Positions 1 through 22,380 of a DNA stretch of 64,000 nt are shown here, in pieces (positions within the stretch are counted from its first letter, which is position 1; each line of letters begins with the position of its first letter). The stretch is from Asterias amurensis (lineage: Eukaryota; Echinodermata; Asteroidea; Forcipulatida; Asteriidae), in assembly GCF_032118995.1 (NCBI RefSeq), contig NC_092662.1, positions 17,311,701-17,375,700 on the forward strand. The letters run 5' to 3'. The notes beneath the pieces are model-generated. The model made no database searches and had not been told where the DNA came from. It saw only the letters and a list, made by a program, of their open reading frames with translations. The translations under genes were made by a program, and so were the position numbers.

Positions 1-1288
1 TTTTTTGGTATGTGATTTCGGGTAAGGATTAGTGATGTATTATTTTGATTAAATTAGTTGATTTATTGACTAACAATTAACTTGGAGCTGAGCATGCTGA
101 GTAGAGAAACCAATTCAGTAAGTAATGCCATTATTATGATTTTGTCACTCAACATCCTCTTTTTTCGTTGGTTAGGCCTTCCTCGATGGTTATCTGACAC
201 TTTTTTCAGGTTGTTGTTTGATTTCTTATTGTATTAAAATCGGATGAAGAAATCATGCGATGCTGTTGTTTGACGAAAAACAAAAATTGGTTTTAGTTTT
301 TACCTTCTTTTCAGGCAGTGGCAAGGAACAACATAAATATAAATATGTTTTTTCTGTTGGAGCTTTTTAAGAATGTGTACCAACTTTTGCCAACTTGATA
401 TTCAACGTTGCCAAAGTGATACGCAATGTTCTATTAAAATTAGTGCCAATACGCTGCGATTGCTCTGCTTTTATGGCCCTACGCCATGACGCCAGTACCA
501 GCAAGAGTAAAAATGATTTTGTAATAAAAAAAGCACATTTTTGTTGCTGCGCTTATTCCCTAATCAGCTAATTATCGCTTACCATTTGATCAACCGTTTG
601 AGAGCACATCGATTGAAATGAAAAATTGTGCAAGCTAATTTTGATGTAGTGTTTGAAAGCCTCCGAGCTGACAATTCGTAAAATCACTCGGTTAAACATT
701 GTCTGTGCCATGATGTTAAGTGGTGCGCATGATCACAAGCGCTGATTCGATTCGCTGGAAAGAGCAGCACTTGGTATTAATTTCATTTTCAGTTACAGGC
801 ACAAATTTTGTTTTCAGAAATCGGCAATATGGAAAATAGGACACAGGATTTTGATGGAAATATTCCAGCCATAGGCGTAGACAGCAAGATCGTTTGCTCT
901 TCTTTGTAGCAAATTAAATGTAGCCAGATGATACTTGTTGAACTGGTTAGCATTCATAGTGATGTAATACATGACGAGGAATACAATTCTAATTCTGGTA
1001 GTTGTACATATTACATTCGTCAGGCCTGATGCTTCATGCAACATAGGCAACTGCCTTAATGCCCCTGGTTGTTGCTGTGGTATTCCCTGAAATGTTCCAA
1101 TAGAAACATGGGATTTCTTCACAGAGCTGCCCTTTCAAAAATGAAGCATCAAGCCTGCTTTTGTAGTAATGCAATCTGGATTAAAAAAATATGAATTAAA
1201 ATAATTAAAGTTATAGTTTACACTGGTACTGACTGTACATTTAAGACGATGTTGAAACACTTTGTACTAAAAGAAAAAGCTCAAGAAT

Positions 1289-1436
1289 CACACCTCAAAG
1301 GCATGGGCCTCTAGTCCCACTTGGGGCAATAAGAATGGCTCTAAATCACATGAGGTAATAGCAACCTACTAGTCTCTGTGTTAATCCCAACCTATCCTCT
1401 ATATGGTGACGGTTGTTTCATGACGGAGATACACAC
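1289..1436 (+). ncRNA. H/ACA-type snoRNA, family 1, copy a (intronic)
   Basis: 148 nt, inside an intron upstream of the first traced BET exon. The 5' hairpin has a lower stem ACCTC/GAGGT and upper stem GGGCC/GGCTC. The H box is ATAGCA at 1358-1363, 16 nt after the upper stem. The 3' hairpin pairs TAGTCTCTGT with ACGGAGATA (one bulge) and CAACC with GGTTG. The ACA box is at 1431-1433, 15 nt after the upper stem and 3 nt from the proposed end. These spacings match H/ACA guide RNAs. Two other copies (6429, 8274) are nearly identical over exactly this length, with unrelated flanks. Confidence 0.8.
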
Positions 1437-2382
1437 CTATATATTGTCAATACAATGGAGATTAAAATTAATTATCAAAAAGCCAGGAATAGAACATGAA
1501 ACTAATGCTCATCTCTACAAAACATACTATGAATTGTTTTTATTTGTGTACAATCGTTGTTGAGGAGTAAGCGGTCATTGCACTCCTATTGTCTCATGCC
1601 CTTTTACATTCTGTTATTAATGACATGATAAAGAATTGCTTTCCTTTGTATTCCTATGTCCAGATTGCCTTGCTACGTATAAAGTGCCGGAGATTAATAC
1701 CTTAATTTCCCAGGCAAGTTAATTTGTAAAATGTTGCTTTATTTGTGCAGACAGAACGTCATGAGTTATGGCTGCCTGCTATTATGTGTTGTCTGGTTCT
1801 ACGTTACTTTCATTGAATTGCCGCGGCGTTTTTTCATGTGTTGTGTGCGTTTTCTACTTGGCAAATAATGTGCCCCGCTGGTGAATAGCCTACTAGCAAC
1901 GATGCGGACAAACAAATTAAACCTTGGTCTAAAAATGTATTTCTTTCAACTTGCTATTTTTATTCCTGCTTCAGTTTATTATAAATAATTATTAAATTTA
2001 ATTTTTTTACATCCGTAAATTGCTTGTTGTAATATGGGTTTTTTTTTTGTCTTGAGGGATAAAACTACTATTTAGGGGAGATGTTTTACAATTTTAAGAT
2101 TAAACAGGGATGGGTGTTCAGATAAAAGTTCAAAATTCAGGGGTTGAATTTGGGGTAAATTTCACGAGACTGGCCTTTGGACTTTTGTGCAGTATAAATT
2201 GAAGCCCTGACGCTGAATATTTTTCCTTAAATTTTATCAGCGGTTGGTACATATGTACATGTCATAGTATAATTAACCTGGAACATTTCAAACTCCATTT
2301 AGTTTCCTTTCGCCATCATATTTAAAAGTGCCAAAATTGTAAGAAAGTATTTATATTTAATAGCTTGTCTCTTTCCACACAG

Positions 2383-5300
2383 GCCAGCGATTCACCAAAC
2401 GGCAGTGAATGTTTCGGGGGATGCTGAACACCTTGATCTCGACGAAGACGTGACACAGACTACAAATATATTACAACAGCCAACTCTAAATAACAAAGAC
2501 ATTACTGCTATGAAAGCAGACATGGTAGGTAGCAAGGCGGAAAAGGTTAGGTATGTTTTATCAAAGCATGCCATATGGCATTTTTGACTGAATAAACCCA
2601 ACAGTTGAGCTCAGCTTAACTTTGGCGAATAATTCATTGCGATTTTGTGACGCAATATTCCCTTCGCATTTGCAGGAAGTATGAACCAGGCTTGTCCTCA
2701 AGGTGAAGTTGTAGCGACGGCCCCATATACTCAATTAATGAAAAGAATGGGTAACATGACTAAATTTATCTATTTAATTTCTCCAGCCTCAGGCCAACCC
2801 AACTGCAGCAGCTTCGCAACAACTAAAGCGACCATCAGGAAGGATGACCAACCAACTGCAGTACCTACAGAAGGTGGTCATGAAAGCCCTCTGGAAACAC
2901 CAGTTTGCTTGGCCCTTCCATGTGCCTGTTGATCCTTCAAAGCTTAGCTTACCGGTAAGACTTGTCTCCCTTTCCTCTTCGTGGGATATTCCTAAGTAAT
3001 TATTGTTCAGGTTAGTCCATGCCTGATACTTCACAGAGGCAACGAAGGCGATTGCCTCCGTACCCCATGGTCACTTTGGCAGCGAATAATTCACATGAGT
3101 TCAGCACAAGTCAACTGATGCAAATTATTTGTTGCAAATTTGTGACTTCAAAACCATACCATTCGCAGGACATCTCAACTGTTATATTTAAAATGAAATG
3201 CCACCAGAAGTACTTACTGTTGGGATTTTTTTATTAGAGATTCATTACTTGTTCCCAAATTGTTTGGACCTTGTGGGCATGGGTCTTAGTTCCTCCTTGG
3301 AACCAGGATAGAAACCCTTTTCACATGAGGTAAAATGAAGATCTAATCATCCACCTTTATACCACAACCATCTCTTCGTCAGTACTGTTGGTTGATTCAA
3401 AGGGTGGTTACATATTACAAAGTATTATTTTAATAACTAAGTATCTCTCAATCCCTCTGACTACTGTGCCAGTAACAGGGTCGGCATTTTCCATCAGAGC
3501 AACAAGACTTTAGAATCCACTTCCTGAAAACCTCGGACAAATTCCCTTTAAATCACATATTTTCTAATATAAAGCTATTGACTTTTTTGTGGGTTTTGTT
3601 TTGTGCAGGATTACTTTACAATCATCAAAAATCCGATGGATCTGGGCACAATTAAAAAGCGGTTGGAAAGTAACTACTACTTCAGTGCAAAGGACTGCAT
3701 CTCAGACTTCAATCTTATGTTTACTAACTGTTATTTGTACAATAAACCCGGAGAGGTAAGTGAATGCTAATAGGGCTATGTCACACGAGGCAATTTACAA
3801 GCAACCAATGCCAGCAATCTCCACGAAGAGAATCCATTCGCATTTGAATGTTCACATAATTATTATGCTTTGGGATCGATATTGTTCGAAAAATTTCTCC
3901 TGTGCTACCAAAATTGTCTTGTAGCATGCACTGCAGTTAGTTTCTTTCAAGTAGGCTTGGAAAAGTTGCCTCGTGTGACAAGAATCTTATAATCGAAATA
4001 ACTTGATTTTGGACCCAGAGTGCTTGATTTGGGTTTTTATGTTGAAACCCACGCTAATGCTTTTCAATGATGATATTAACCTTACCTACTCTGAAATGAG
4101 CTGATGCACAAATTAACAGAAAATCTGAGAAAAGCAAAAGTCTTGTAAATGTCCTGATACTTTCAAATCCATGAGGAAATCTTTGCTCCCTAGAATCTGT
4201 CTTTGTTAAACTAACCACATTGTTTCACTTCGCCATGACTTAGTATTTTAACTTTGGTTTACTTATAGTTTATTTTCAAGGTTTTTCTTGAGTGCACTGT
4301 TTGGTTTGGGTGTGTACAGACAAATTAACCCAAACCTCAAAGTAGTGTCATATGAATGTGTTCGCCATGTCTCAAAATTGCTTAATTTTTTTAGTGTCTA
4401 AGGATGTTTTCTTTATTGCATGTTTAGGATGTCGTGTTGATGGGTCAAGCCTTGGAAAAACTCTTCCTCACTAAAGTGGCTCAGATGCCTCAAGAGGAGC
4501 TCGAGTTACCACCACCCCCTAAGCAAGGACCTGGAGAAGACCCCTTGGCTGGAGCAAGGAAAGGCAAACGGGGGCGCGGAAGAGGTGCACCTCCAAGTAA
4601 GTCTTTATCCTCTTTAATACAAGGCTCAATTTCATAGAGCTGCTTGAGCATATAAAGTTGCTAAGCACAACAAAATTATGCTTACCAGATTGAGGTTACC
4701 AGGTAAAATACCACTGTACAAAATGTAACTGGCATCCTGCTTAGTTGTGCTTAGCAGAAAAGTGTGAGGCAATATTTTCTGCTTAAGCAGCTCTATGAGG
4801 TTGGACCCTGGATATCTTCTGATTATATATGCCTTGTCTAGAGTTGTTGACTGGCAGTGCAGAGTAATAATGCTCTAAAAAGAAACTAACTAAATATTTT
4901 ATGATTTTGTCTGATACTTTGTTTTTAATATAGTCGTTCCTCTTTTTTTGTAGGAGCAGCTGCTGCTGCCGCTACAGCTGCAGTCGCCCCCTCCGCCCAT
5001 CTTGCCGAGAATAACCACACATCGCCACCCACCACAAGAACTCCACCCCCATCTACAAGGCCGACGCCTCCCACAAGACCCACGCCTCCAAGACCAACGC
5101 CCCCCAACACAAGGCCTTCACCCACCACCAGGGTTCAGGCTTCAACGAGGTTGGTAGCTAATCAGAGGGCACCTGCAGTATCGCGGATCGTTCCTCCTGC
5201 GAGGGTAGCACCCTCGCCAAGGCCTACTCCTCCTGCAGCTCACCCACAGCCAGCAGCTCCCGTAGAGCCCATTTTATCACCTCCCCCTGTTCCTTCTACT

Positions 5301-8300
5301 GGTGGTAAGGGACAGATGTCGTCTCCTCCTCAAGGAGTATCTAAAGTAAGTTAGGATAAATATAAATTAACATGTGTAGCTTCCTGACTTTTAAATAAAA
5401 GGAAGGAAGGCCTCTTTTATTTTGTCCCCCTCTTTTTTTTTCCTTTTTTTCCCCTACTTTTTTCTCAAATAGCTGCCCGACAGATTTTTTAAGACAACCG
5501 GCTGGGCTTATTTTTTTTACCCATTTTTTTATTTCTTTTCTTCAAATTAATATGTTTGTATTGTTTTCGTCTGAGATCCTCAAAAGGATTTGAGCACATC
5601 TCAACTGTTATATTTAAAATGAAATGCCACCAGAAGTATTTACTGTTGGGATTTTTTTTATTAGAGATTCATTACTTGTTCTCAAATCGTTTGGACCTTG
5701 TGGGCATGGGTCTTAGTTCCTCCTTGGAACCAGGATAGAAACCCTTTTCACACGAGGTAAAATGAAGATCTAATCATCCACCTTTATACCACAACCATCT
5801 CTTTGTCAGTACTGTTGGTTGATTCAAAGGGTGGTTACATACTATTGAGAATAATTTTGATTACGGAAAATTTGTCCCTGTTGTGTTCAATATATTTTTA
5901 AATATCTCCCTAATTGTTATGCAAAATCTTACTGATTGCAAGATGCAAATGTTGCCAGCTCTAGAGACAATTAACTTTTACAACTCTCTGTCTTTTTCCA
6001 GGTTAGAAAAGGTGTGAAGCGGAAAGCAGACACGACAACGCCAAGCACCACACCTGCATCAGCAGTTGCCCTCCATAATTCCTTTGCTTTGTTGGATTCT
6101 CCCAAGCCAAATAAAATCACAACGCGGCGAGAGAGCGGTCGTCAAATCAAGCCTCCCAAACGAGAACTCCCTGACGAAGAGGCGCAACATCAAAAGGGCA
6201 AGAAATTAAAACTGTCCGTCCAGCTCAGGCACTGCTTCGCCATCTTGAAAGAAATGCTCTCAAAAAAGCATGCAGTATGTGCACAAGTATATTTCTCTTG
6301 TACTTTTATATTACTATCATCTTATTTTCTATTCAGTTGCTAAATGTTTCATTCACTGAAAATTATCAACTTTTCTTTTGATAATATCAGAATTTTGACT
6401 TTGAAACACTTATCATAGGATTATGAACCACACCTCAAAGGCATGGGCCTCTAGTCCCACTTGGGGCAATAAGAATGACTCTAAATCACATGAGGTAATA
6501 GCAACCTACTAGTCTCTGTGTTAATCCCAACTTATCCTCTATATGGTGACGGTTGTTTCATGACGGAGATACACACCTTTAAAGCCATCGGGCCCAATTT
6601 CATAAAGCTGTTAAGCAGAAAATACTGCTCAGCAAATGTCTGTGCTAAACAAAAAAATAGTAGAGAACCAGTTGCAACAGTGTCGACTTTATGGAGTGTT
6701 GCCTGGTAACCAGTTCCTGTTACGCAAGGTTTTTCTGTGAATTTTGTTTAATGAAATTGGTCCCTTGTGTTTGAATTTTATCAATTGCTTTGAGCTATCG
6801 ATATTGAGGAAAAATATGTACACTTTTACAGTTTTGTTTTTACTAAATAATGGCTTCAAAGTATACTAAAGCTAGGAAGTCTAAGGAAACCTTTCTCCAG
6901 GAAGGGTTGCCACTTGAAGCAAAGTCCATCTTATACTCTTGTACTTGTCTCAGGCCTGATGCTTCATTTTTGAAGGGCAAGGTTACCAAGGCATTTTCTC
7001 TTTGGTAAAGGGCACTGTAAACTTCTATTGGAGCGCTTCAAGGGGCACCAAGGCAATTGCTTAAAAGCAATTGCCTCTGAAGTATCAGGCCTGTTGTCTT
7101 CTTTGCCCAAGACCACTTGCAATGCTACACGACTTGAACACTTGACCATGAAATTCTGTTATTTCTTATTTGATGTAGATGTATGCGTGGCCCTTCTTCA
7201 AACCAGTTGACGCTGACGTACTTGGACTACATGATTACCACGACATCATTAAACATCCAATGGACCTAGGAACAGTAAAGGTAAATAGTGAACTTTGGCT
7301 GTTGTAAATCTGCCTTTATTTTGGACCTTGTGGGCATGGGTCTTAGTTCCTCCTTGGAACCAGGATAGAAACCCTTTTCACATGAGGTAAAATGAAGATC
7401 TAATCATCCACCTTTATACCACAACCATCTCTTCATCAGTACTGTTGGTTGATTCAAAGGGTGGTTACATATTAAAAAGTATAATTTTGATTACCAAGTA
7501 TCTCTCAATCCCTCTTACAATGGCCCTTTGAAACTTCGGCTTTGGATTCGGCTCAGGTTAGCTTGGCTTCACCGGTTGTTTTGACAGTTTGCGCATGCTT
7601 TGCATATACGCCCTCAGTGTTTCAAATGGAGCCTGAAGCGGAATCCAAAGCCGAAGCAATGGTTTCGAAAAGGGCCTATTACTGAACTTGCTGGGCCAGT
7701 GATGGGGACATCCAGCCGTCATCTTTACAGCTAAACCGATGATGACACAATGGAAATGCACATATTTGTGCGTGTGGATTTGCCAATGAACAACCTCCAT
7801 TTGACCTGTAGGTGAGGGCGCTCTACTCAAATGACGTCATGTGCATAAGGACTATAGAAAAATCGTGAGTAGTTCAGCCCCACACTGGAGTATTGTTTGA
7901 GTGGATGACATAAATTCTTCAATTTCTCCTCGTTTAGGACAAACTAGAAAACAGAACATACAAGAATGCCAATGAATTTGCTGCTGACATGAGAATGATG
8001 TTTACAAATTGCTACAAGTATAACCCACCAGACCACGATGTCGTCAACATGGCAAGAAAGCTTCAGGTTAGTCAAGCAAAAAATTTTTTTTGAAATGTTG
8101 TTTTTTTGCTAGTCCTCATTAACTGAAACCTGTCAATTCCTGTAAATTTGTAACCTAGCTTTGTCTAATTTTGAGGGGCCCAATATGGGTGAGAGAGTCA
8201 CTTTGGTGATTCAAATCATTTCTGTCTGTAGAGTGCGAGTGCGGACTTTAATTTTGATTAAAAAGTTTATGTGCACACCTCAAAGGCATGGGCCTCTAGT

Positions 8301-11300
8301 CCCACTTGGGGCAATAAGAATGGCTCTAAATCACATGAGGTAATAGCAACCTACTAGTCTCTGTGTTAATCCCAACCTATCCTCTATATGGTGACGGTTG
8401 TTTCATGACGGAGATACACTTTTTATCGTACTGTTAAAATCTTAAAGTTTTTGAATCTTTATAAACTCGAACAAGTAGTTTTCCGGGACTATCTTTACAA
8501 GCCCAGCAATTTTCCTCTGATAAAGGGCACTTCTATTAGGAAAATGTAAATTTTTAAAGGAACTTTGCAATGGGCACCACAGCAAAATCACCGGGCATCA
8601 CGACAATTGCTGTAGGGGCCGTGGGTTATTTTAATAATAATAATAATCTAAGCATTGAGGTAGCATTCTTACACAGAAAAAGTACCACAACGCTTTACAA
8701 CAATAATTTTGCGGCCAGCTTTCATGAAACTTATCTCTGCTTCTTCTCAGGATGTATTTGAAGTTCGGTTTGCCAAGATGCCAGATGAACCGTTGACGCC
8801 TGAAGACGACGACGATGATGATGATACTAAAGACAGTGATGCCAGCAGTCACCCGACAACACCCTCTGGATCAGAGTCAGACGACAGTGAAGTAGAACGA
8901 GAAGAACAGTTAACCAAGCTGCAGGCTCAGGTTAGTGCTACGATCCAAGGCCCTTTAATGGTTTCATCTATGAACTAGTTGGCATATCACTCAGGTTGGA
9001 TTTGAACCCATCACCTTTGCCATGCTAGAGCAGGTTTTTTACCAATAGAGCACCGTGCAACTATGTGGTAGACCTCATTCCACAATGTAATAAAAGAAAG
9101 AAGTAAAGTCAGTCTAAGCCAGTATGGCTCATCAGGCCAGTGTTTATATCCGGTTTCATTGGCTTAAAAGGACTGAGACTATTTCTAATCCCCCTGGATG
9201 CCATTCCTTGGTGGAGAGAAGCAATCAAGGACACAAGTGTTGTGACTGACCAGCATTCGAACCCACATTCAGTGAATTACTGAACTTGAGTCTACCACCC
9301 TAGACTGCTCAGTCACGGCACCCCACAATGTCAACAAATCTCATTCTTTGTTTCTGGAGACGTTAAGTTTGAAATGATGATATCTTGCGTGTCAACTGAG
9401 TCGGTAACTTCAAACCAGTCTTGCAGAGAGCTATGTAGAATATTATAATTCACACTGCTGAACAAGACTGGGGAGAAACGCTAGCATATGACGTATGCTC
9501 AAATCTGATCTTACTCCAAAACAGGCCGTTTACGCCACAACCAATGCAGCATTTTTAGGTGGTAGTATTTTTGCTTAGCGTTAGTTAAACTAAGTTTAAG
9601 TATGATTAAATCTGATCTTATGTGACTCCAAACGGGTCATTAATTGCTCAACCAGCGCTACATTTTTAGGCGGTAACTTTTTGTTCAGAGTGAGGTTTAC
9701 TAAGTTGTTACCAGTAAAGATTTCTGATTTGCGTGCCATGACTTTAATTATTGGACTCGGTATGTGAATCTCTTGCAGCTGAAATCAGTACACGAACAGC
9801 TGACGGCACTCTCCCAAGCATCCCAAAACCGCTCCAAGAAGAAGAAAGACCACAAGAAGAAGAGGAGAAAGGATAAAGATCCCGAGAACCACACCTCCTC
9901 AGAGAAAGAGAAAGACATGATGGAGGTAGATGAGAAGGTTGAGAAGCCAAAGGTGAAGGATGAGCCTGAACCCAAAGTCAAGGAGGAGGTGAATACGAAG
10001 ACGGTCAAACCCAAGAAGCCCAGGGCTAAGCCCAATAAAGGGAAAGCTGGAGGAGACAAAGCAACCAAGGCAACCAAGACGAAAAAGAGCTCAGGAAGGT
10101 AGGTGTATCAATCTGTCAGAAAAAAATCCAGTCCTGGGCCCAATTTCATAGAGCTGCTTAAAGGGAAGGTACACGTTTGGTAATTGTCAAAGACCAGTCT
10201 TCTCACTTGGTGTATCCCATCATAACCATAAAATATCAAGCCTGTGAAAATGTGGGCTCAATAGGTCATTTCCCACAATGTTTTATACTATCAACCTCAT
10301 CCCCAATGCTTGTTACCAAGTCAGTTTTTAAGTTAATATTTGTATTGAGTAACTACCAAACGTGTACCTTCCCTTTAAGTATTGCCTAGAATTTTCCGCG
10401 AAGAAGAAATGAGCAGAATACCAGTCACAAATTGTACATGTTACATGGTAGTTTGGCTGTTAACCTCATTCTGGTAAGCATGATTTTGTTGTGCTGAGCT
10501 ACTTTTTGTGCTTCAGCACCCCTATGAAAATTCCGGCCATTCTGAAAAAAATGTCCCCATTAGGGTGTAAGTGAACTAATGTAAGATCCAGAGCCGTAAC
10601 TGGTTAAAATTTGTGTTTTTAGTGGTATTTTAAAGTTACTTTTTTTTATCCTGCAGATCGAAGAAGTCTAAAGCCATTGTGCCGACATTTGATAGTGAGG
10701 ACGAGGACATGGCCAAGCCAATGTCATATGATGAGAAGAGGCAGCTTAGCCTGGACATCAATAAATTACCAGGTAAATAAGCTCTTGCCGTCTTCTGCTG
10801 AAGATGATGAAAAGGTTACAGCCACAACTCAGTAGCTGCGAACCGACATAAGAAATAGAACTAGATTTAGGTTTTTGTGACATCACACAAACAAGGTGGT
10901 CGTGAATTATGTTTAAAAATAGTGTTGCCTTTCAGCATGGAATTATGAAGTGTTTTATCTGGAAGACAAAGTGATTTGAGTCGTTTCTGTGAGGTGTTTG
11001 TAAAGGTTTTGAAGACCTTTCCAGTGATGTATACATTTTGAAATTATGTGCTTCATGAATGATGATGTTTTTAAAGTTTTTTTTTTAGAAGTGTGGCATT
11101 TCAGTATTCACATTGAGTAATGAGCTGTGCTAGGTATTATAGAACACATAGGACTCTTGCCCTTTCTTTTTGAGGTTAAACAACTAAAAATGTTTGATAC
11201 TCTAGGTGACAAGCTTGGAAGAGTTGTTCACATCATTCAATCGAGAGAACCTTCCTTGAAGGACTCCAACCCCGACGAGATTGAAATCGACTTTGAGACG

Positions 11301-11476
11301 CTGAAGCCATCGACGCTACGAGAACTGGAAAGATACGTTATGTCATGTCTCAGAAAAAAGCCTCGTAAACCATATGGTGAGTACTCATTGACCCATTTCT
11401 TTGTTTTTGATTTGTATCCTAGTAGAGGAACAAATAGGAGCCATGCAATAGTTTCAAATTGTGGGCATATCTATAT

Positions 11477-11519
<43 letters not shown>

Positions 11520-13184
11520 TTCAGTTTTTTGGGGGGAGGGGATGGTACTAATCTGATTAACAGACAAAGAACACGCTTGGTTCTTACCATAACAGAGATG
11601 CAAACTTTCTTTTATTCTGAAAAAAGTTCCCTGAAAATAAAGTAATCTTTCTTAACATTGAACAGGGTATAATGAACAAAATTAAATGCCACCAGAAACT
11701 GGGGAAGTTGTCTTTATTAAAGATCCATATACTTGTTTTCAAATTGTTTGGACCTTGTGGGCATGGGTCTTAGTTCCTCCTTGGAACCAGGATAGAAACC
11801 CTTTTCACATGAGGTAAAATGAAGATCTAATCATCCACCTTTATACCACAACCATCTCTTCGTCAGTACTTTTGGTTGATTCAAAGGGTGGTTACAAATC
11901 AGTAAGAATAAGTTTTGATAACCATTCGGAATTGTAAAAACGTGTTCTTGAGTGACCTGATAACTTCAAAAAGAGTTAGTAATGCAAAGCAGCCAACTCC
12001 CCCTGATTCCGCAGAAAGTTTCCTTTAAAAAAAAACCAATCTGTTCCCACCTGTGGTATTATTTTTTAAAGATTTTTTGCAGGTTCTTGAGTTACCATTT
12101 CATTTGAAAATAATATTGCCACAATGAAAACTTGACTTGTTTGAGGTAAGATAAGAAAGGTTTTCATAAATGTGTCCAATAAAAAGACCTGGATAAAGAG
12201 TCATTCGGGCTTGAAGTGGCTTAAAAATACTAAGTTTTTATGAGAGTTCTCCAAAGTTGAAATCTCATTGTATTTTTTTTCTTTCTCAGCATCCAAAAAG
12301 ACGCAGGGTAAATCCAAGGAGGAAGCCGTGAAGGAGAAGAAGCAAGAGTTGGAAAAGAGACTACAAGCAGTCAGTGGTCAGCTTGGTGGTCAGTTTACAA
12401 AGAAAGCAGCCAAGAAAGGTATGTTGGTTATTCACATTCATTCTGATTGAATCAAGTTAAAAATAAATTTGTTCAACCCAAATTTATTGGAAGATTACCC
12501 AGTCAGTTTCTATTGCAGTATATTACTTGAAAGTAATCTTAGGCTCTTTATAGTATATTTTGATACTTTTAAGATCAGTTTGAAAACCACCTTGTTTAAT
12601 ATGGCTTACATGTAACTGTTCTATGTCTGATTTTCCCTTACTTTGCGAGAATTCCCTCTCGTTTGCCTTGAGCACCTTAATTTGTTGGATTATTGGCACC
12701 TTACAAATATTCTATATTATTATTGTAAAGTACAAACATTTTCCATGTACATGAACCAAAACAAATTATGTCCAACTCTCAAAAAAAAAAAAAAAAAAAC
12801 TGGGCATTCCCTTTACCACCTGGATTTTCCCAAATCAATTCCTGGGCCTTGGTTTCACAACATACTAAGGTCCATCTTAAGAAGAGTCGTCAGTAAAAAT
12901 AAAATAAAGAGTTTGATCTTTTTGATGTTTGACCTTTGTCGAGGAAAGTGGATGTACAAAAGTACAGCACATGGATCTATCTACCTTGCAGAGTGTCGCA
13001 CCCAAGTTAATTATCTGATTCCCCCTCCCCCATTACAGCCCAGCAAGATGCATTAGACTGTCTTGCTGAAGTTGGTGCTAACCGACTAACGAGTAGTAGC
13101 AGTTCATCTGGTAGTGACAGCAGCAGCAGCAGTAGTTCCAGCTCCAACTCATCCGATAGCAGTGACTCGGAGTCAGGTAGTTAG
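2383..13184 (+). CDS. BRD4: BET protein, predicted short isoform ending after the Ser-rich region
   Basis: Uses the same first 14 exons as the long form. If the donor after 13176 is not used, the frame continues Gly-Ser-stop (TAG at 13182-13184), giving about 818 aa from the ATG at 2510. This form keeps both bromodomains, the ET domain and the Ser-rich stretch, and loses the Pro/Ala-rich exons and the P-TEFb tail. It parallels the vertebrate short BRD4 isoform, which also adds only a few unique residues after the shared part. The next 2.7 kb has no exon and ends in AATAAA at 15871, as a 3'UTR would. The isoform is inferred from sequence and has no transcript support here. Confidence 0.6.
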
Positions 13185-16100
13185 ACTCAAATACTACAAA
13201 TATACACAGTGAAAACTTGCACCAGCACAACTAAAACCACAGTCTTGACCATACCTGAGTGATGGCTTTTAACCTACTACCAATTTCAAAGAGCTGTTTA
13301 TGGGTAAGCAAATTTTCTGCTTGTTTTAGCAGACAAATTTGCTTAAGCACATGTGTATTTCACCAGTTAGCAGAGACGGCCAGCTTGCGCGTTCACTATG
13401 GAGTTGCATAATTTATTTGCATATAGTGAGCAACTTGGAATGTTAGAGCATGTCCTTTCTTGCGCTTAGCAGTATTAAGAAACAGAAATCGCCTAGTAGG
13501 CACAAAATCGGCTGTTAAGCAGCTCTATGAAATTTGGCCCTCGACACGATTTTGTACAGATGGTAAAATATTGCACAACAATGCATCTTACTAGCTTCAA
13601 ATAAGTGGGAGTTGTTCACTAACAATTTATCACAATATTTTTGTGGGTAACCTGTTTCCGATAAGCAAAATTTGTCTGATATGCTTAGCACGATTTAGAC
13701 AATAATCCTGTTTGTCTGGAAACTGTTGGCAAAAAGCTGTGGTTTCACTGGCGTAGGATTCAATGTGGATCTGTAAATTGTGGACAATTTTTTATATATA
13801 TATATCATTAACGCCATTTGGACACAATTTGATAGTAATGTGCAAGTTTTCACTGTGTAGATGTTTTATTAATATTATTAGCAACTACAGAGTATCTTTC
13901 AATGGGTAGTCAATCTTGACAAGGAGCAGTGTGGACTGTTAAAATTTATGGGGGCTATTCTTGAAGAAAACAATTCTTAATCAGTGGCAACAACAGCATG
14001 TTCAAGATGAATTAGAACTTACAGAAGAACTGTGCGATTTAAAGAAAGATTTTTTTGTCACTTGTATTTGAAAACTACTCAATTTATGATGCAACATGCT
14101 GCAACGCCATCCAAGTTGGATAAGCTTTTGCTGCATTTTGATAGTGTATAATCTATTAAAAACAAGTTTGTGTACAAAATACCTACCCTGCCAAAAGGTG
14201 CAGTAGCATGCTTAATTGACAACTAAATATATGTGGATGAATACGTTGCCAAACAAAAGGAGCTTTGCGGATACTTGCAAGAGTGTTTTTAAAAGCCTCA
14301 AATTTCTTAACTGTATGTCATCGCAATGAGTGATGTTCATTGATGGGTAGTTGGCCACTATCGGGGGTTTAGTAGTTTTTGTTTCAAAGTGATGTTGATT
14401 ATTTTGTGTATGTTGTGAGAACTTTTTACAATCAGCTTAGAGTGCCATGTGTCTTAAGGAATGGCATGGAGATCGCTCAGTGCCAGCTTTACCGGCCAGA
14501 CATCTAGGCCCTTAACAGGGGGACTTAACTGACCTAGTCTCGGCCTTACAAGACGCTACCTGCATTTTTGCATTTTTAATTTTTTTTTTCTTCTCGACAT
14601 GACTGTTGTGTTGTTAGTCCACAATGATTGTGTGGTTGCTCGCTTGACAAAGTACTGTCAAGTTGGTAACATGAGAGTGTGAATGAAGGAGGTAATGAGT
14701 GAAACTGTGGTTTGTGGTTGATCAACGTTCCTGTAGGGTGAACGTATTGAATCGGTCAATGCAGCACCATCTCTTCGTAAAAAAATCCCCCCGCCCCCCA
14801 CCCTAACAGTCCCCAAGGGTATGCCAACATTGGGTCCTCGCTCTTGTTTTCACTTGACAGTTTCATCTGGTAAAGACGCCAGCTTTTAATTGTAAACAAA
14901 ATTGTTACTTATGATTTTTGAATCATGAACAAACTGTAGCCTGGCCAAGTTGGCCGATTAGCGGAAGCCGAAGCTGGCCTGAGTTGATAAGTCTGTGCCA
15001 TTCTGAACACATGTACGCACTCTGCTGAAGACTAGCTTTGACACTATTCCTATACTAATGTTGTACTGCATTTTTTGTCGTTCTTTAAAGACAACCAACC
15101 AATCAGATTTACTGCAGCATGTTGATATTGTTACTTAACGTAGTAGTGTCTGCCCATGTTGTTAATTAATACAATCAGTCTGTGAGTTCCAATCTGGACT
15201 TTAAACAATTTATAATGTGATTATTCTGCTTTTTACAGACGGTAGAGAGTCCCTGAAATATGTTTATTTTTGTAGGCTAGTTCCTATGATGTTGAGAAAC
15301 TCTGTTTCTAACTATGTGGCTAGACCACATTTTTTATATTCGTTAAGATCCCTAGTAATAAGTAATCTTCACATGTAAATATAAACAAACTATTCCTTGA
15401 CTTGAAAGACATCTTTAAGAATTGTTGGCCAATTACTAGACGAATGCCCCCAAGTAATCAAAAAATGATCTGCGTTAAGTTTGGTGCTCACAGAAAGATT
15501 TTTTTTTTTTGCTTTTTTTTTATACCAAATCAAAACTTTTTGCAATTGTTGTCATAGTTGATCATTTGTTTCATGTTCCTTTTTTTTTTATGAATGTACT
15601 TTAACAGCACCTTTTAGTTTAAGGGATTATTTTGTACAAAACGAAAGAGCCGATTGTGTTGCAGGTAATGTTAATCGTTGCTGTGTGTGTAATTAAAACT
15701 ACTGTCCTCTTTTAATCAAGTATTTAAAAAAAAAAAGCATTTGTGTTTTGTGCACTCAATGCTGTAGATGAGTCATTTGGTGGGCTAGATTCGTAGCTAC
15801 AGAGTAACGAGTACATGTGCCTGTACATAAATACAATGGTCGGCTCTGTATGCTGATGTATTATCTCTTCAATAAAAATTAAAATAATAATAAAAAAAAA
15901 CAGGTCAAACTTATATTTTCAAATTGTATTTCTTTTTTTGTCAGCGATTTGTCAAGTGAAATCGGTCGAAAACCCAATGTTGGCACCCACTTTTCCTCTT
16001 TGCCCCAAGTCGTTTTATCTTCGAAGCAAATTGTATGTAGATTAGGCGTTTATTAACAAGGTGAAACCATGTTTATTTATATTCTACATATATTTAGTTT

Positions 16101-19100
16101 CAAATTAATCTGCGTTGCACGGCGTGAAACATCTGTATTATTAACAAGGGAGCTTTGGACTGTTTATAGTCTATGCTAAGAACCTTTCTAACAAGTGGGT
16201 ACCAACAATGGGTTTTGTGCCATCGTATTAACTTTATACAAAGTTGAGGTATGCCCCTGTCCATTTCCTTTCTTTTATTGCAAAATTCCTATAAATTCTC
16301 TCACTTTGAAGGGACCATTAGCTTCAATTATTCATATTCCACTTCAAAATTGTGGAATGGCAATTTTTTAAATGTTTGACATAAACGTCAACTCAAAGTG
16401 AGGTTTCAAATATTCTCTCTGGAGCTGGTTAGTTGTTGAAGCAGTCAGTCTTTTAAAAAAGTGATTTACCTGCTTTTGAAGTCAAGTTTGAAACGATGGT
16501 TGTCATTCATTTTTAAAGTTTGGATTACAAGCAAATATCCTGGCTTTGTTTCCTCGGTTCCCATACTCTGATTTCATTTTAATAACACAATTTTCTGTGG
16601 TCGGAGAGAGAATCATTCATGGGAAATATTATTAAACATAAGACATTGTTCCCTGACAATCCTCAGATAAAACAGTTCTTAATTACGCCACCCCTAGTCT
16701 TGATCGCTCCTGTCAAACAATCCCTCTGTAGAAGAGAACGCACACTTTCCTAAAAGCCTTTTTGATTACATCAATTTGAAAAGGAAAGAAACAAGATACT
16801 GCCGTGATGCGACTGTCTTGTTCCCTGTATACAATATCAATGCTCCCTTAGTATATAAGATAGTCGCCAGACAATTTGTCCACCGAGCCTCAGTTTGGTG
16901 ACAGTGTTTTTGAATGGGAAGGATCTGTTGGATGACATGAAACAAGTGAAGGAGAGGAGAGTGATTGGTTTTTACCCTCGATCAGAGAGGGTATTTTAGT
17001 AGTGAATATTGAAACCTTGAATACATTATACTGTAGCTGCGGCAGCATCACCCAGGAAGAGACTGAGACCGAGCACAGTGTCACCTCCACCGAAGAAGAC
17101 ACCGGCCACAAGAAAACCGGTAAGACATATGGTATATCGGCCGCCTTGTAGTGACTTCCATATTGGGTAGATGTCATCTTGCCTTTGCAAGCTGCCGTGG
17201 TAACTGCTTTGATATGTGAAGCAACACACCAGGGGCCTTTTTCAAACCTCTGCCTTCAACCTGTATTTTGGAGCAGCGCGTATTGACTGACATCGGCACC
17301 TTCAGCCCAAGCCAAGGTTTGAGAACGGCCCCAGGGCTCGATTTCATTTTAAGATCAGATGTCGGTGTATTGTGACATCATACTTTACTTAAGATTGATA
17401 CTCAGTTAAGATCAATCTTAACTCAATGTGAAATTGGTCCCAAGGCAAAATTTCACAGAGCAATCATATAATCCTCCTACTGTTTGACTATTCAATATTA
17501 CATCCTAGTTAATGAAAGATAAACTTTATAAATTGAATTCATGTGGGGAATGCGTCTATGTAGCATATGTACACAATTCTGTACACAGTTCTGTGCAGTT
17601 GTGTTCCCATACACAACCTGTTCAAATATATTTGATATGATTGCTGGAATGTGATCAACAGTGGGAGGGTTAACATTCAAAATACTGTACCTGTGTTTGG
17701 GCTATTGGCCAGGGGCCAATTTCATAGAGCTGCTTAAGCAAAAAATTTGCTTAAGCACGAAAATAGCTCGCTTATTTTACACATGTTACTGGCCAAAATT
17801 TCATGCCATATACATTGCTTATGACTAGTATTTAGCTGTTGTTTACTTAGCATAACAATTGAGTGGAGTCTTGGCTGGTAATCTGATTTTACTAAGCAAT
17901 GAATTTTGTGCTTAAGCAAAATTTTGTGCTTAATCAACTCTATGAAATTGGGCCCATGGCACAGGTGATGGCCATTTCTATACATCCATCATAAACAGTT
18001 GCATAGCTAGCTAGATGTATGAGACGGTGCCTCTTCACTGTCTTTTCCTTTGAAAACCTTGGACTAACAACTGCTCACAGACGCCTCCCTCCCCCAAGGT
18101 GTCGCCCACCTATGCCACTGGGCACAACATTAAAATATATTATGGGCTTTGCCAAATTCTATAATTATAGTCCCAAGTTGATCCCTGACCCTTGACCTTC
18201 TTGATACAGCCAACCCCTAGAGGTCCAAGGAAGCTAACTGCTAAGCAACAAGCAGCTGCTTCGATGAATATTAAGTTGACGACAGCGGCAGTCGCCCCAG
18301 CTGGTGAGGATGAGGGAATGGCTGTGCCACAGACATCCAAAACTGGTATGATTCACTAACTGGCTCCGTCCAAAGAAACAAGAGTTTCTCAGTCTTTTAT
18401 ATCAAGTTACGATGTTATGAACCCTTAGAACTTCGTAATTATGTTGATCTATGACTGTACCAGGGACAGGTGATCCAAGCTACTTTGATAAGTTCATGGC
18501 CCTCTCTTTCTTAACGATCAAACAATTTATTGGGTCACTGAGCTGAATTTTTATAACAGTTTTGATTATTCTCCAATCCACCTTTTTTTTTTTCCCAATT
18601 AGCACCATCGGCTGCAATCAAGGTAACGGGGAAATCGACAACAGCCAGCAAGTCGGCAGCAAGTAAAGCTGCAGCCGCTGCAGCTGCTGCGGCCGCAGCA
18701 GCTGCTGCCTCTGCAGCAGCAGACGCAGCAGCTGCCGCAACAGCATCAGTAGCAGCAGCAACAGCACCCATCAAGCCTGAGTCCCAGCCAGAGACGCCCC
18801 TCGATGAGCCCCCGAAGTCATCACTTCCAATCCCCAGTGCTCATACAACCCTCCCAGCTCAGCCGAGTCGGCCAAGTAGTAAAGCTGCACCTCTACCAGC
18901 CAAAGTGAAGCGATTAAGTCTCTCCTCGCCGCCACCATTAGCGAAGCAGGACACCAAACCATCGTTAACAACACCGCCTCCTTTGCAGTCTCCTCCTCCA
19001 CTCCAGCCATTACTACAGACAACTGCAGCGAGTACAGCATCATTACAAACAGCACCTGTGTCTACAAACGCACATAAAGGTGAGTGGCAACTAAAGAGGA

Positions 19101-22100
19101 CGTTTGAGATGTTATCCACCTGCTCTATTCAGAAGCAACACTACTCAATTTACGCATAGTGCTACCGCAAAACTCGCCTAGGACTTATCAAATATTTGAC
19201 ATCTTTGTTTGAAATCAATTGTTGATACAAGTCAAATTATTCATTGAGGTATTAATTGAAATATTTCTTTTCAGATGAGATCCCCAAGGTAGCACCACAG
19301 CCGCAACAACAGAGACGCAAATCTCCAATCCAGCACACCAAGCCACCAAGCCTTCCTACACCCCCATCTCTCACCCCACTCAAACCCCATGCTACTCCAG
19401 CCGCACCTGCAACAAAACCACCACCAAAAGACACCATCAACGATGCACCAGTCTTGCCACCTTCACAGCCAGCTCCACTCTCAGCAATACAACCGACTAG
19501 ACATGACTCCACCACGGACCCCCAGACAGGGATAAACTCACACCCCAACAGGGGACCCGAGACAGACCCTGAAACCGACCCAAATCATCTTCCAGAATCT
19601 ACATCCCAACCCTCCCCTCCGTTGCCTCTTGGGGGAAGGCACGAGTCCCCGGTGTACAGTCCTTCGATGCCGATGTTAGAGAAACCTGATTTGATTCCAA
19701 TGAAGTTCATGATGGGTGATGATGAAGAGGATGATGAAGATATGGAGGGGGAGGAAGAGGAGGAGGAGGGTGAAGAAGGGAGCAATGGGACGTCAACGGA
19801 CATCATCGTTGCATCTCAGCTGCCACCTAACTCACCGACGGTTAGCAAAGAGCCCAACGCTAAACAACGTGAGTAGACAATTAAAACTATAGATTTGTTC
19901 AATTTTTTTGTTTTACTCTTACACAGGCATGTTTTAATAAGCACTGTACTCTCAGTACTTTACGGAGTTCTGTGAAAAAAATCCACAGGCAAATCACTCG
20001 GGTGAGATTCGAACCCAAAACCTTTGCATTGCTAGAGCATTGCTGATATTTCTAGAAAAAAATATAATTTGTTGTTTACCAACCGAAAGGACAGAAAGCT
20101 ATATATGCAAAAAAAAAGGTAATGGTTGATGTTATTTTTATTAAAGCCACTCAAGGTTGCCTGTCTAAAAGTCAATCGACCACTCGGTATTTATCAAAAC
20201 ATTTTTTAACTTTGCAGAACCGCAAGCCAAGCCCAGTGGTCCTCCATCCAATAAGAATGTAGAAAATGCTAAGAAGGTTGACCGAGGAACCCCAGGACCA
20301 ATGAAGAAACCTGCTCAGGATGTGAAGATTCAAAACGTTGGATCGTGGTCTAACCTTGCCACGGCGCTCAATACGGCCAAGGTCAAGCAATCCACACCCA
20401 TAGTGAGTCATTCTACCTTTGAGGTCTTCAAGAAAGCTGCTCAGGAAAAGAAGGAAAGGGTGAGTGAAATTTGACCTCTTTCTCTAGGAACCCCTGAATA
20501 AATTTATGACTTTTGAATCCTGCTTACACTATAAAGTTGCATTTTGTTGGACACGGCCCATTTTATAAAGCTGTAAAGCAGGAAAATGCTGCTAGACAAT
20601 TTTTTTGCAAAGCAAAAATCTAAGGGGCCCCCAATGTAATTTGGGCTGGTAACCTGTTTTGTGTTAAGTAATACTTTTCTATGCTCAGCACGTTGTTGTG
20701 CTTACAAGCTTTGTGAAATTGGGCCCTGTTGGTTTCTTGTCAGATGTGTGGTGCTCTACAAAGCTGGTTGACGACATTGTCATTTACAGGAAAATCAGAC
20801 AAATTAACCCAGATTTTAGCGGGGCAAATAAAGTAACAATTTTTGATACTCTTGCCTGTGATGATATATCATGGAATTTGGCGCATAGTCAGAGTATGTC
20901 ATGAGTGAAGATAGTTGGCTTTAGGGCCAGTGCAGATTGGAATTTTGGGAAAACAAATATTACTAGAATAACAAGAAATTTTCAAAATGGCTTCTATTGC
21001 CGAGAACAAATCTATGCACTAAATTCCATGCTTGTATCATCAAAGGGAAAATCAAATCAAGTACCTGCTGTATTATTTGATTTTTCTCTGTGGTTTCCAT
21101 TCAGGAAAAGGCCAAAAAGCAGCAAGAAGAGATGAGGAAGACGCAACGAGAGCAAGCTGAGAGAGAAAGACTAAGACAGGAAAGGGAAAGATTAAGGTAT
21201 GAAGACGGTTTATGATAAAACATTTCAAAACAGAAATCCATTTAAAATCTTATTGGTAGATACAATAAAACCTGCAACCAGGATATTGTCGCACATCCCA
21301 TGTAATTGGTTTCTTTAAGAAATGTTCTGAATTTTGTTAAAGTTGTGTTCTCTTTTACAATTTGTTTGGTTGTTTGTTTTATAAAAATGATCTTTCCCTC
21401 AAGGGAACTCGGCAAACTCCAACAGCAGGATATAAACACCAAGCTGGCAACAGCCAATCTCTCTCATACAAACATTGGTTTAACGTCTAAGATTACAATT
21501 ACACAAATCAAGAAATTGTGGTTCGAATCACTGTTAAATCAGCTTTTAATTTGGTAGGATTCGAACCAACCACCTTGTGATTGCAAGTCCTGCAGTCTAA
21601 GCACTGGACCATTGATATCAAAGAAGTTAATTGTTTTTTACTTAAAGTCAGTTATTTAGACAGTTTTAGACTTTACTAATATCATTTTGGCAACAAACAA
21701 AACTAATTTTCTTACCCCCCATGCAAAATGATATTAATTTGATATCAGAAACATGGTAATCTTTTTCTAATAAAAAATAGTTATCTGTTGCAAACTCTTT
21801 AACCAACGAAAAGGACCTATGGTATGAATGCAAACAAATAGTTGGCCTGACACTTTGACCCTAGCAGAGACATTCTTGGAGGCTAACTTTGCTTTTCTGC
21901 AATTTTTTTTCCAGAGAGAAGGAAGAAGATGAGGCTCTTGAGAGAGCGAGAATGGCTCAGAAGGAAGATCAAAGTAAACAGAATTCACAGAAGGAGAGAG
22001 AACGATTACGAGAACAAGAACGACGAAAACGAGAGGCGGTAAGTCGAGTCTTAGAAAAATTTGTAAGATTGTCGTTTGTCTAATCTATTTTGAAATTCTT

Positions 22101-22380
22101 TGCTTGAATCTTGGCTAACAGAAAGTTCGCTGGCAGTGTTAAGCCTGGTTCATACTTCCTGTGAATGCGATGTGAATTTTGACGTCACAGCTCTGTTTTC
22201 ACTGCGAATGTTTCACAGGAGTTCAGCACATCTCAACTCTTGCAAAATGTTCATTACCAGATCACTCAACTCCATTTTGACTAAATCTTTTTAATATTGT
22301 TGTCAATGTTGCAGATGGCCGGTGCAATCGACATGAATCAGCAGAGTGACATCATGGCACAGTTTGAAGAAATGCTTTGA
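2383..22380 (+). CDS. BRD4: BET bromodomain protein, BRD4-like, long isoform (22 exons traced)
   Basis: Chromatin reader that binds acetylated histones and recruits P-TEFb. Exons: 2383-2524, 2787-2954, 3609-3755, 4428-4596, 4954-5345, 6002-6274, 7179-7280, 7938-8066, 8751-8930, 9779-10098, 10657-10772, 11206-11376, 12290-12418, 13039-13176, 17037-17119, 18210-18345, 18603-19079, 19275-19868, 20218-20459, 21105-21196, 21915-22038, 22315-22380; all junction phases agree. Bromodomain 1 is in exons 2-4 ([30 protein letters not shown]), bromodomain 2 in exons 6-9 ([28 protein letters not shown]), and the ET domain in exons 11-12 ([20 protein letters not shown]). The basic helical tail ends in [18 protein letters not shown], matching the BRD4 P-TEFb-interacting end. 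The first ATG in frame in the first listed exon is at 2510, giving about 1420 aa. That exon is open upstream, so an earlier start in an exon left of it is possible. Confidence 0.93.
3264..3415 (+). ncRNA. H/ACA-type snoRNA, family 2, copy a (intronic)
   Basis: 152 nt in the BET intron 2955-3608. The 5' hairpin has lower stem ACCT plus TGTG against CACA plus AGGT, and upper stem GGGT/ACCC. H box candidate AAATGA at 3333-3338 lies 15 nt after the upper stem. The 3' hairpin pairs CCACCTTT with AAAGGGTGG and CAACCA with TGGTTG. ACA is at 3410-3412, exactly 15 nt after the upper stem. The 5' hairpin resembles family 1 in sequence (GGCATGGG, CACATGAGGTA). Confidence 0.8.
4623..4808. repeat. GGGCCC-type foldback element
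   Basis: Ends GGCTCAATTTCATAGAGC and GCTCTATGAGGTTGGACCC in the BET intron 4597-4953. The core is rich in GCTTAAGCA-like motifs. Confidence 0.65.
5691..5842 (+). ncRNA. H/ACA-type snoRNA, family 2, copy b (intronic)
   Basis: 152 nt in the BET intron 5346-6001. It differs from copy a by single bases (for example CACACGAGG for CACATGAGG, CTTTGTC for CTTCGTC). ACA is at 5837-5839. The 95 nt upstream also match the upstream flank of copy a, so it arose by copying an intron segment. Confidence 0.8.
6429..6576 (+). ncRNA. H/ACA-type snoRNA, family 1, copy b (intronic)
   Basis: 148 nt in the BET intron 6275-7178. It differs from copy a at only about two positions (G to A in the 5' upper stem region, C to T beside the 3' upper stem). 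Boxes sit at the same offsets: H box ATAGCA, ACA at 6571-6573. Similarity to the other copies stops at the element ends. Confidence 0.8.
6590..6764. repeat. GGGCCC-type foldback element
   Basis: Starts GGGCCCAATTTCATAAAGC 14 nt after snoRNA copy 1b and ends ATGAAATTGGTCCC, in the same BET intron. Confidence 0.6.
6951..7093. repeat. Foldback with CAGGCCTGATGCTTC ends
   Basis: CAGGCCTGATGCTTCA pairs with GAAGTATCAGGCCTG at the other end. Related diverged sequence is at about 1018-1160 and 56305-56460 (GAAGGGCAAGGGCACCAAG-type core). Confidence 0.65.
7321..7472 (+). ncRNA. H/ACA-type snoRNA, family 2, copy c (intronic)
   Basis: 152 nt in the BET intron 7281-7937, only 40 nt from the donor. Body nearly identical to copies a and b; ACA at 7467-7469. 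Its upstream flank does not match theirs, so the conserved unit is the snoRNA itself. Confidence 0.8.
8274..8421 (+). ncRNA. H/ACA-type snoRNA, family 1, copy c (intronic)
   Basis: 148 nt in the BET intron 8067-8750, essentially identical to copy a. The ACA box is at 8416-8418. After it the sequence changes to TTT-rich DNA unlike the other copies, which fixes the 3' end within a few nt of the ACA box, as expected of H/ACA RNAs. Confidence 0.8.
9241..9326 (-). mobile_element. tRNA-like SINE remnant (Leu/Ser-like)
   Basis: On the minus strand GGGGTGCCGTGACTGAGCAG is followed by a long variable region and B box GGTTCGAATGC. A second weak one lies at about 8998-9060. Confidence 0.45.
9501..9706. 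repeat. Two-unit direct repeat, about 105 bp each
   Basis: Both units start AAATCTGATCTTA and share CATTTTTAGG(T/C)GGTA; the second starts near 9608. In the BET intron 8931-9778. Confidence 0.55.
10136..10538. repeat. GGGCCC-type foldback element split by a TTAA element
   Basis: The left end GGGCCCAATTTCATAGAGC breaks at 10158. The element resumes at 10379 with AGCAGAATACC-type interior and ends near CTATGAAAATTCCGGCC. The break is filled by the 213 bp element at 10162-10374. Confidence 0.7.
10162..10374. mobile_element. TTAA-flanked foldback (AGGGAAGGTACACG ends), 213 bp
   Basis: Perfect 14 bp terminal inverted repeats AGGGAAGGTACACG / CGTGTACCTTCCCT, extended by TTTGGTA-like pairing, with TTAA at 10158-10161 and 10375-10378. 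TTAA duplication is the hallmark of piggyBac-type transposition; the element has no coding capacity. Confidence 0.75.
11473..11521. repeat. (ATTT)n microsatellite
   Basis: About twelve ATTT units in the BET intron after the ET-domain exon. Confidence 0.85.
11748..11899 (+). ncRNA. H/ACA-type snoRNA, family 2, copy d (intronic)
   Basis: 152 nt in the BET intron 11377-12289. The change seen is ACTTTTGG for ACTGTTGG in the terminal loop of the 3' hairpin. ACA is at 11894-11896. The upstream flank is a diverged version of the flank of copies a and b, while the body is almost unchanged: body conserved more than flank. Confidence 0.8.
13280..13540. repeat. GGGCCC-type foldback element
   Basis: Left end CCAATTTCAAAGAGCTG, right end GCTCTATGAAATTTGGCCC. 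It lies in the candidate short-isoform 3'UTR. Confidence 0.6.
15871..15876 (+). promoter_or_regulatory. Poly(A) signal AATAAA for the short BET isoform
   Basis: AATAAA is followed by an A/T-rich run and a T-rich tract at 15931-15942. It lies 2.7 kb after the read-through stop and 1.1 kb before the next long-isoform exon. Confidence 0.45.
17712..17955. repeat. GGGCCC-type foldback element
   Basis: Good inverted ends, GGGGCCAATTTCATAGAGC and ACTCTATGAAATTGGGCCC, in the BET intron 17120-18209. Confidence 0.7.
19939..20040 (-). mobile_element. tRNA-like SINE remnant
   Basis: Diverged copy of the 49312 unit: GGTTCGAATCTCACCCGAGT on the minus strand and the same AGTACTGAGAGTACAGTGC tail. In the BET intron 19869-20217. 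Confidence 0.5.
20555..20726. repeat. GGGCCC-type foldback element
   Basis: Ends GGCCCATTTTATAAAGC and GCTTTGTGAAATTGGGCCC in the BET intron 20460-21104. Confidence 0.65.
21552..21620 (-). mobile_element. tRNA-like SINE remnant
   Basis: Minus strand has B-box GGTTCGAATCC and a possible A box (AGTGCTTAGACTGCAGG). In the BET intron 21197-21914. Confidence 0.4.

Follow-up and report, generated by a model that had tools for sequence, protein, structure and literature searches.

A BET gene with seven intronic elements

The window studied here, a 64-kb stretch of the genome of Asterias amurensis (contig NC_092662.1), carries on its forward strand a BET gene whose introns hold seven elements resembling box H/ACA small nucleolar RNA (snoRNA) genes. 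The protein obtained from the hand-spliced exons matched the Pfam families Bromodomain (in two stretches) and BET ET domain, and its closest named relatives are those of a sea cucumber and of sea urchins. Exons 2 to 15 of the short form of the gene span 2383-13184 (+), exon 1 lying upstream of the window. The upstream first coding exon (MDTKSHP...) was located at about 9505-9563 of the sequence L017 and ends ~440 nucleotides (nt) before the window start; it is matched by the protein P0001, its best relative, at E 0.008, and its donor, CCGT/GTAAGG as read by eye, has the phase that exon 2 requires. Intron 1 runs from about window position -436 to 2382, and the element located there can be considered intronic because a coding exon with a donor of the right phase lies upstream of the window. 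The host gene appears to have two forms, a short one that ends at 13184 and a longer one; 18842-22377 is matched by C-terminal sequence of a sea urchin long BET form.

The short form has fourteen introns, of which seven hold one element each, all on the plus strand. We defined the end of each element, by convention, as the ACA plus 3 nt, which gives 148 nt for the elements of type A and 152 nt for those of type B. Type A comprises A1 (1289-1436) in intron 1, A2 (6429-6576) in the intron 6276-7178 and A3 (8274-8421) in the intron 8067-8750. Type B comprises B1 (3264-3415) in the intron 2955-3608, B2 (5691-5842) in the intron at about 5346-6001, B3 (7321-7472), which starts ~40 nt past the 5' splice site of the intron 7281-7937, and B4 (11748-11899) in the intron 11377-12289. 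The latter intron also contains a run of ATTT repeats, at about 11475-11521.

An initial annotation made from the letters of the window had described two families of fixed length on the host strand (148 nt in three copies, 152 nt in four), one element in each of seven BET introns and none elsewhere in the window. Both the repeats and the coordinates agree with the first statement, the long direct repeats in 1-14000 including one family with four copies and another with three, and the covariance search described below, together with the exon map, agrees with the second. A further two-copy repeat family in 1-14000 corresponds to the left flank common to B1 and B2. The cores are 98.6-100% identical among the A copies, with no difference between A1 and A3 over 144 nt, and 98.0-99.3% identical among the B copies. 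The two types align with each other from end to end with a mean column identity of 79%, and are therefore sister genes (paralogues).

Restriction of the elements to one locus

The genome searched comprised 491.5 Mb in 23 contigs. A DNA search of the whole of it, of a kind that skips common words and could miss diverged relatives of either type, gave three matches for type A and four for type B, all of them inside the BET gene (3/3 and 4/4). The signature common to both types, GGCATGGGYCT followed after 30-40 nt by TCACAYGAGGTAA, has seven exact matches in the genome, again all in the BET gene (7/7), and its reversed control has none. A covariance model built on the seven copies recovered these at E < 1e-31; the next match in the 64 kb had E = 1.3, and the best one in the 10 kb upstream of the window, on the opposite strand, E = 0.15.

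These searches bear directly on the possibility that the elements are a short interspersed element (SINE) or another mobile repeat, inserted seven times in the BET gene. The near identity of the type A copies within unrelated flanks is what such a repeat would produce, and the initial annotation had named thousands of dispersed copies as the observation that would make the elements a SINE; checked across the genome, there are seven matches only. Since the scan with the common signature gives exactly these seven, the elements are not a SINE, and this identity was rejected, all copies lying in a single gene, in one orientation and one per intron. Moreover, the repeats at the flanks do not exceed 6 nt, as is the case at 12% of random places, no poly(A) tail was seen by eye, and some B copies have flanks in common, as local duplication gives. 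The SINE reading is thus refuted as far as a close dispersed repeat is concerned, and a mobile repeat of any kind appears extremely improbable.

Box H/ACA anatomy and paired changes

Box H/ACA RNAs consist of two hairpins linked by a hinge and followed by a 3' tail; they have an H box of consensus ANANNA in the hinge, an ACA about 3 nt before the 3' end of the RNA and about 14-16 nt between the upper stem and the H box or the ACA. The minimum folds of all seven copies contain two lower stems and follow the order hairpin, H box, hairpin, ACA. In A1, the 5' hairpin occupies 1292-1356, the H box ATAGCA 1358-1363, the 3' hairpin 1372-1430 and the ACA 1431-1433; in B1, the corresponding positions are 3268-3331, 3333-3338 (AAATGA), 3351-3407 and 3410-3412, all on the plus strand. 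The H boxes of both types fit the hinge consensus, and the H box and the ACA, the latter after the 3' hairpin, are present in 7/7 copies. Counted on the folds, the distance from the upper stem to the box is 16 nt in the 5' hairpin and 15 nt in the 3' hairpin of A1, and 15 nt in both hairpins of B1. Folding bears out the arrangement proposed at the outset as regards two hairpins separated by an H box, with an ACA after the second, apart from exceptions in the minimum folds of A2 and of the B copies (see "Discussion"), and the proposed spacing of 15-16 nt in both hairpins of both families is found on the A1 and B1 folds.

The initial annotation had also suggested a covariance search as a check, and here the outcome was negative: no Rfam H/ACA family reached its gathering score in the whole window, and looser thresholds gave nothing either on A1 and B1 or over 1-14000. 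Identity with a described Rfam H/ACA family was consequently rejected. Small Cajal body-specific RNAs are marked by a CAB box, UGAG, in an apical loop; inspection of A1 and B1 by eye showed no UGAG in their apical loops, and that class was rejected as well.

The A1 fold has 35 pairs, of which 22 entered the covariation count; the other 13 are upper 5' pairs that are shifted by the sequence alignment or absent in B, plus apical 3' pairs. Over these 22 pairs and the seven copies, 97.4% of the cells pair, a proportion that falls to 33-51% when the partner is slid by 1-3 columns. The covariation score is 0.338 versus 0.226 for shuffled data and was reached by 0/500 shuffles; in all, the structure exceeds chance on three of five shuffle measures. 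In the 3' lower stem, three two-sided changes between A and B are kept paired (U-A/C-G, C-G/A-U, and G-C/C-G), and one of the eight pairs is lost in B. Within type B, a T to C change in the 5' lower stem of B2 keeps its pair (GU to GC). Paired changes in the lower stem of the 3' hairpin thus maintain the predicted fold in both A and B.

Predicted targets of the type A pockets

Two exact conserved 28S probes found no ribosomal DNA (rDNA) of the species in the assembly, from which it may be missing, and we therefore used the ribosomal RNA (rRNA) of other eukaryotes, drawn from a set of nine eukaryotic contigs lodged in bacterial genome records (L008-L016). An rRNA probe had no match in viral contigs. 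The main target scan covered five large-subunit (LSU) and three small-subunit (SSU) rRNAs; L014 entered only the stricter scan and L015 only the motif scan, and L008 and L012 contained no motif.

The best site of the A 5' pocket, GTGATT(U)CTGCCC, ranked first in L011, L013, and L016 and tied for first in L010; the pocket pairs there with 7+4 base pairs (bp). The best site of the A 3' pocket, CATGAA(U)GGATYAAC, ranked first in L010, L013, and L016 and tied for first in L011, where it is altered; it is paired by 6+8 bp, one of them G-U, where the rRNA reads GGATTAAC (L010, L014). Both A pockets are thus complementary, on the rRNA of other eukaryotes, to sequence around an unpaired U-N. A stricter scoring, which covered whole contigs and allowed no mismatch, placed the A 3' site first in L010, L013, and L014 and outside the four best in L011; the A 5' site was absent in L014.

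Concordance was assessed on L013 and L016 alone, L011 being omitted. For both A pockets, the two contigs have the same top site when LSU and SSU are scanned together. Among shuffled pockets, 23/600 had an agreeing top site, 8/600 with a score of at least 20.5 and 4/600 with a score of at least 21.5.

On a piece of human 28S, we take the two A sites to be positions 3674 and 3797. The register of this piece was fixed by a published modification table (PMC6182160): three of five site patterns fit once, all giving 3674 and 3797, the fourth fits this register among four places and the fifth does not fit it (its sites precede the start of the piece). A register placing the GTGA site at 3616/3618 was rejected, the listed sites then falling on other letters. 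The same table gives Psi3674 at 99% and Psim3797 at 100% and contains, by our count, 61 human 28S pseudouridines, these two among them, versus 884 U in the LSU rRNA of L013 and 862 in that of L016. A search for a guide of human 28S 3674 yielded none.

These matches help to weigh the possibility that the elements are structured intronic sequences acting in cis on the splicing or expression of the BET gene rather than guides. That the genome searches find the copies only in a single regulatory gene, with no more than one in any intron, would suit such a role, and cis roles have been reported for intronic snoRNAs (PMC10324135). However, both A pockets match sites that are pseudouridylated in human 28S, in the right register, which a purely cis-acting element need not do, and we consider this explanation very unlikely.

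The type B pockets

At the 3674 site, the B 5' pocket differs from that of type A by paired gains and losses: the GGCA side is lengthened to 6 bp, whereas on the other side the two pairs adjoining the target U are replaced by U-U mismatches, past which 5 bp remain. The B 3' pocket showed no pairing with the 3797 site. In a score-shuffle test on L010, L013, and L016 (three LSU and two SSU rRNAs; L011, with both rRNAs, was omitted), the score of the B 5' pocket was equalled by 69, 65, and 131 of 200 shuffles, respectively; for the B 3' pocket, 47, 166, and 176 did as well. No convincing target emerged for type B, which could guide more weakly than A, be an orphan, or act on a target outside LSU and SSU rRNA.

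Only some of the copies might then work, A guiding rRNA and B being a decayed or orphan duplicate, a possibility that overlaps with the interpretation of all seven elements as snoRNA genes. Neither B pocket has a concordant L013/L016 top site over LSU and SSU, nor did the main scan give B a concordant target, and the lower stem of the 5' hairpin runs into the pocket when B is folded at minimum energy. On the other hand, identity among the B copies is 98-99%, their boxes are intact, and the sole change in a counted B stem, that of B2, keeps the pair. We regard this reading as a possibility to be taken seriously, albeit with less than even chances.

Origin of the copies

The left flanks of B1 and B2 are common back to 3167 and 5593, respectively, about 40-60 nt of the right flank are common to B1 and B3, and ~20 nt of the left flank of B4 are common with B1 and B2. 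The flanks of the A copies are near chance level (<=0.5 per 20 nt). The initial description of nearly identical copies in mostly differing flanks is thus correct for the copies themselves and for the flanks of A; it does not apply to part of the B flanks (B1/B2 on the left, B1/B3 on the right). Since the B flanks are partly common, the B copies would have arisen by local duplication, the flanks then drifting while the cores stayed alike. The spread of snoRNA copies across the introns of one host (intragenic or cis-duplication) is a mode already described, for instance in chicken (PMC2653536).

Alternatively, the copies could have entered the BET introns by snoRNA retroposition rather than by recombination, which concerns their origin only and is compatible with their being snoRNA genes. 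The A copies have no common flank outside the element, and retrotransposition is thought to be the main way in which human H/ACA copies spread (PMC8178906). Against this mode stand the lack of poly(A) and of any convincing target-site duplication at the copies (no tail being seen by eye), the location of all seven in one gene and one orientation, and the flanks shared by B copies. Retroposition was not favoured, without a clear target-site duplication or tail, and seems rather unlikely.

Other features of the window

Another BET intron (3756-4427) contains a box C/D snoRNA candidate at 4060-4135 (+), in which both boxes, C and D, and also a terminal stem are present. It remains under the Rfam gathering scores, with 32.3 of 43 bits for snoR53Y and 22.6 of 38 bits for SNORD34. 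Its D' guide has a 10-nt pairing with the 28S sequence GTAGGTAAGG in L010 and L016 (2/5 LSU rRNAs), and no match for its D guide was found in the eight rRNAs at the threshold of the D' guide. Farther along the window, two transfer RNA genes for Ser (AGA), at 49312-49385 (-) and 49600-49673 (+), are divergent, ~215 nt apart, and have equal Rfam scores.

Discussion

The anatomy of the elements, the spacing of their boxes, the paired changes between A and B, the restriction to one gene and the two matches of the A pockets all support the H/ACA snoRNA-like reading with which the analysis started. We conclude that the seven elements are very probably box H/ACA snoRNA genes that multiplied by cis-duplication and are encoded in the introns of a new host. 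Each would be released from its spliced intron, the released RNA being protected by the dyskerin/NHP2/NOP10/GAR1 core, and would guide pseudouridylation. Type A would direct modification of 28S U3674 through its 5' pocket and of U3797 through its 3' pocket (human numbering), and type B would be its diverged sister, which may retain contact with the 3674 site through its 5' pocket and has no target assigned to its 3' pocket. The copies would have arisen by local duplication inside the BET gene. That their cores have remained 98-100% alike would be due to selection or gene conversion or, in the case of A, to a recent origin of the copies.

Several observations weigh against this assignment. One change in A2 disrupts a pair of the upper 5' stem, so that the upper part of this hairpin is rearranged in the minimum fold; the minimum folds of all four B copies form a 4-bp hinge hairpin that uses part of the H box, and the fold energies are only mildly low (z -0.6 to -1.8). 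No Rfam H/ACA family matched A1 or B1 (2/7 copies) with an E threshold of 10, or 1-14000 with one of 5. Two of the five shuffle measures of covariation were no better than chance (181/500 and 406/500), and the covariation consists mostly of one split between A and B, with otherwise only the one change in B2. As to the targets, the two 28S probes did not find the rDNA of the species itself, neither A site shows in L009, and the A 3' site is joint second in L016 under stricter scoring. Judged by score alone, the A 5' pocket does not stand out, being equalled by 59/200, 26/200, and 26/200 shuffles with L010, L013, and L016, and the A 3' pocket does so with L010 only (1/200; 38 and 42 with L013 and L016). 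The lack of a concordant top site for the B pockets should be counted here as well.

Many snoRNAs reside in genes that encode proteins of the ribosome or of translation, or in non-coding host genes. A BET transcription regulator with seven H/ACA copies and a C/D candidate would be an unusual host, and would provide a clean case of H/ACA cis-duplication outside vertebrates. The initial annotation knew of no BET gene hosting such an array, and among the top matches listed in our search of the open-access literature (8 of 97 in one case) we found no paper that reports a BET gene as the host of a snoRNA. The A/B pair also allows one to test how sister guides keep or lose a target, because their 5' pockets differ by paired gains and losses at one 28S site. 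One may go further and imagine the BET gene, a master transcription regulator, as a dedicated high-dosage H/ACA host in this lineage, in which the guide output for two conserved 28S pseudouridines would be tied to its transcription and splicing, B would have acquired another target, perhaps outside rRNA and perhaps the BET transcript itself, and BET activity and ribosome modification would be linked by feedback; we hold this extension to be improbable.

Among known guides, the box H/ACA snoRNA SNORA48 (ACA48) is comparable in predicted function: PMC6466398 lists it for human 28S 3797, with which the A 3' pocket is predicted to pair. SNORA48 resides in human in SENP3-EIF4A1, as opposed to a BET gene here, and A and B match neither SNORA48 nor any other Rfam H/ACA family. 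Mammalian snoRNA retroposons likewise consist of near-identical H/ACA copies in unlike flanks, as type A does here; the BET-intron copies differ from them in that none is dispersed, no tail was seen and there is no clear target-site duplication. A further parallel is with cis-duplicated snoRNA paralogues, such as those that PMC2653536 describes in chicken, which likewise have copies in several introns of one gene. In human, it is the C/D families that mostly have one host, whereas H/ACA families tend to have several (PMC8178906); here, the copies in one host are H/ACA and not C/D, and there are seven of them, of two types, in a BET gene. The kind of guide RNA is thus known; what is unusual is that the host is a BET gene and that the array comprises seven H/ACA copies of two types.

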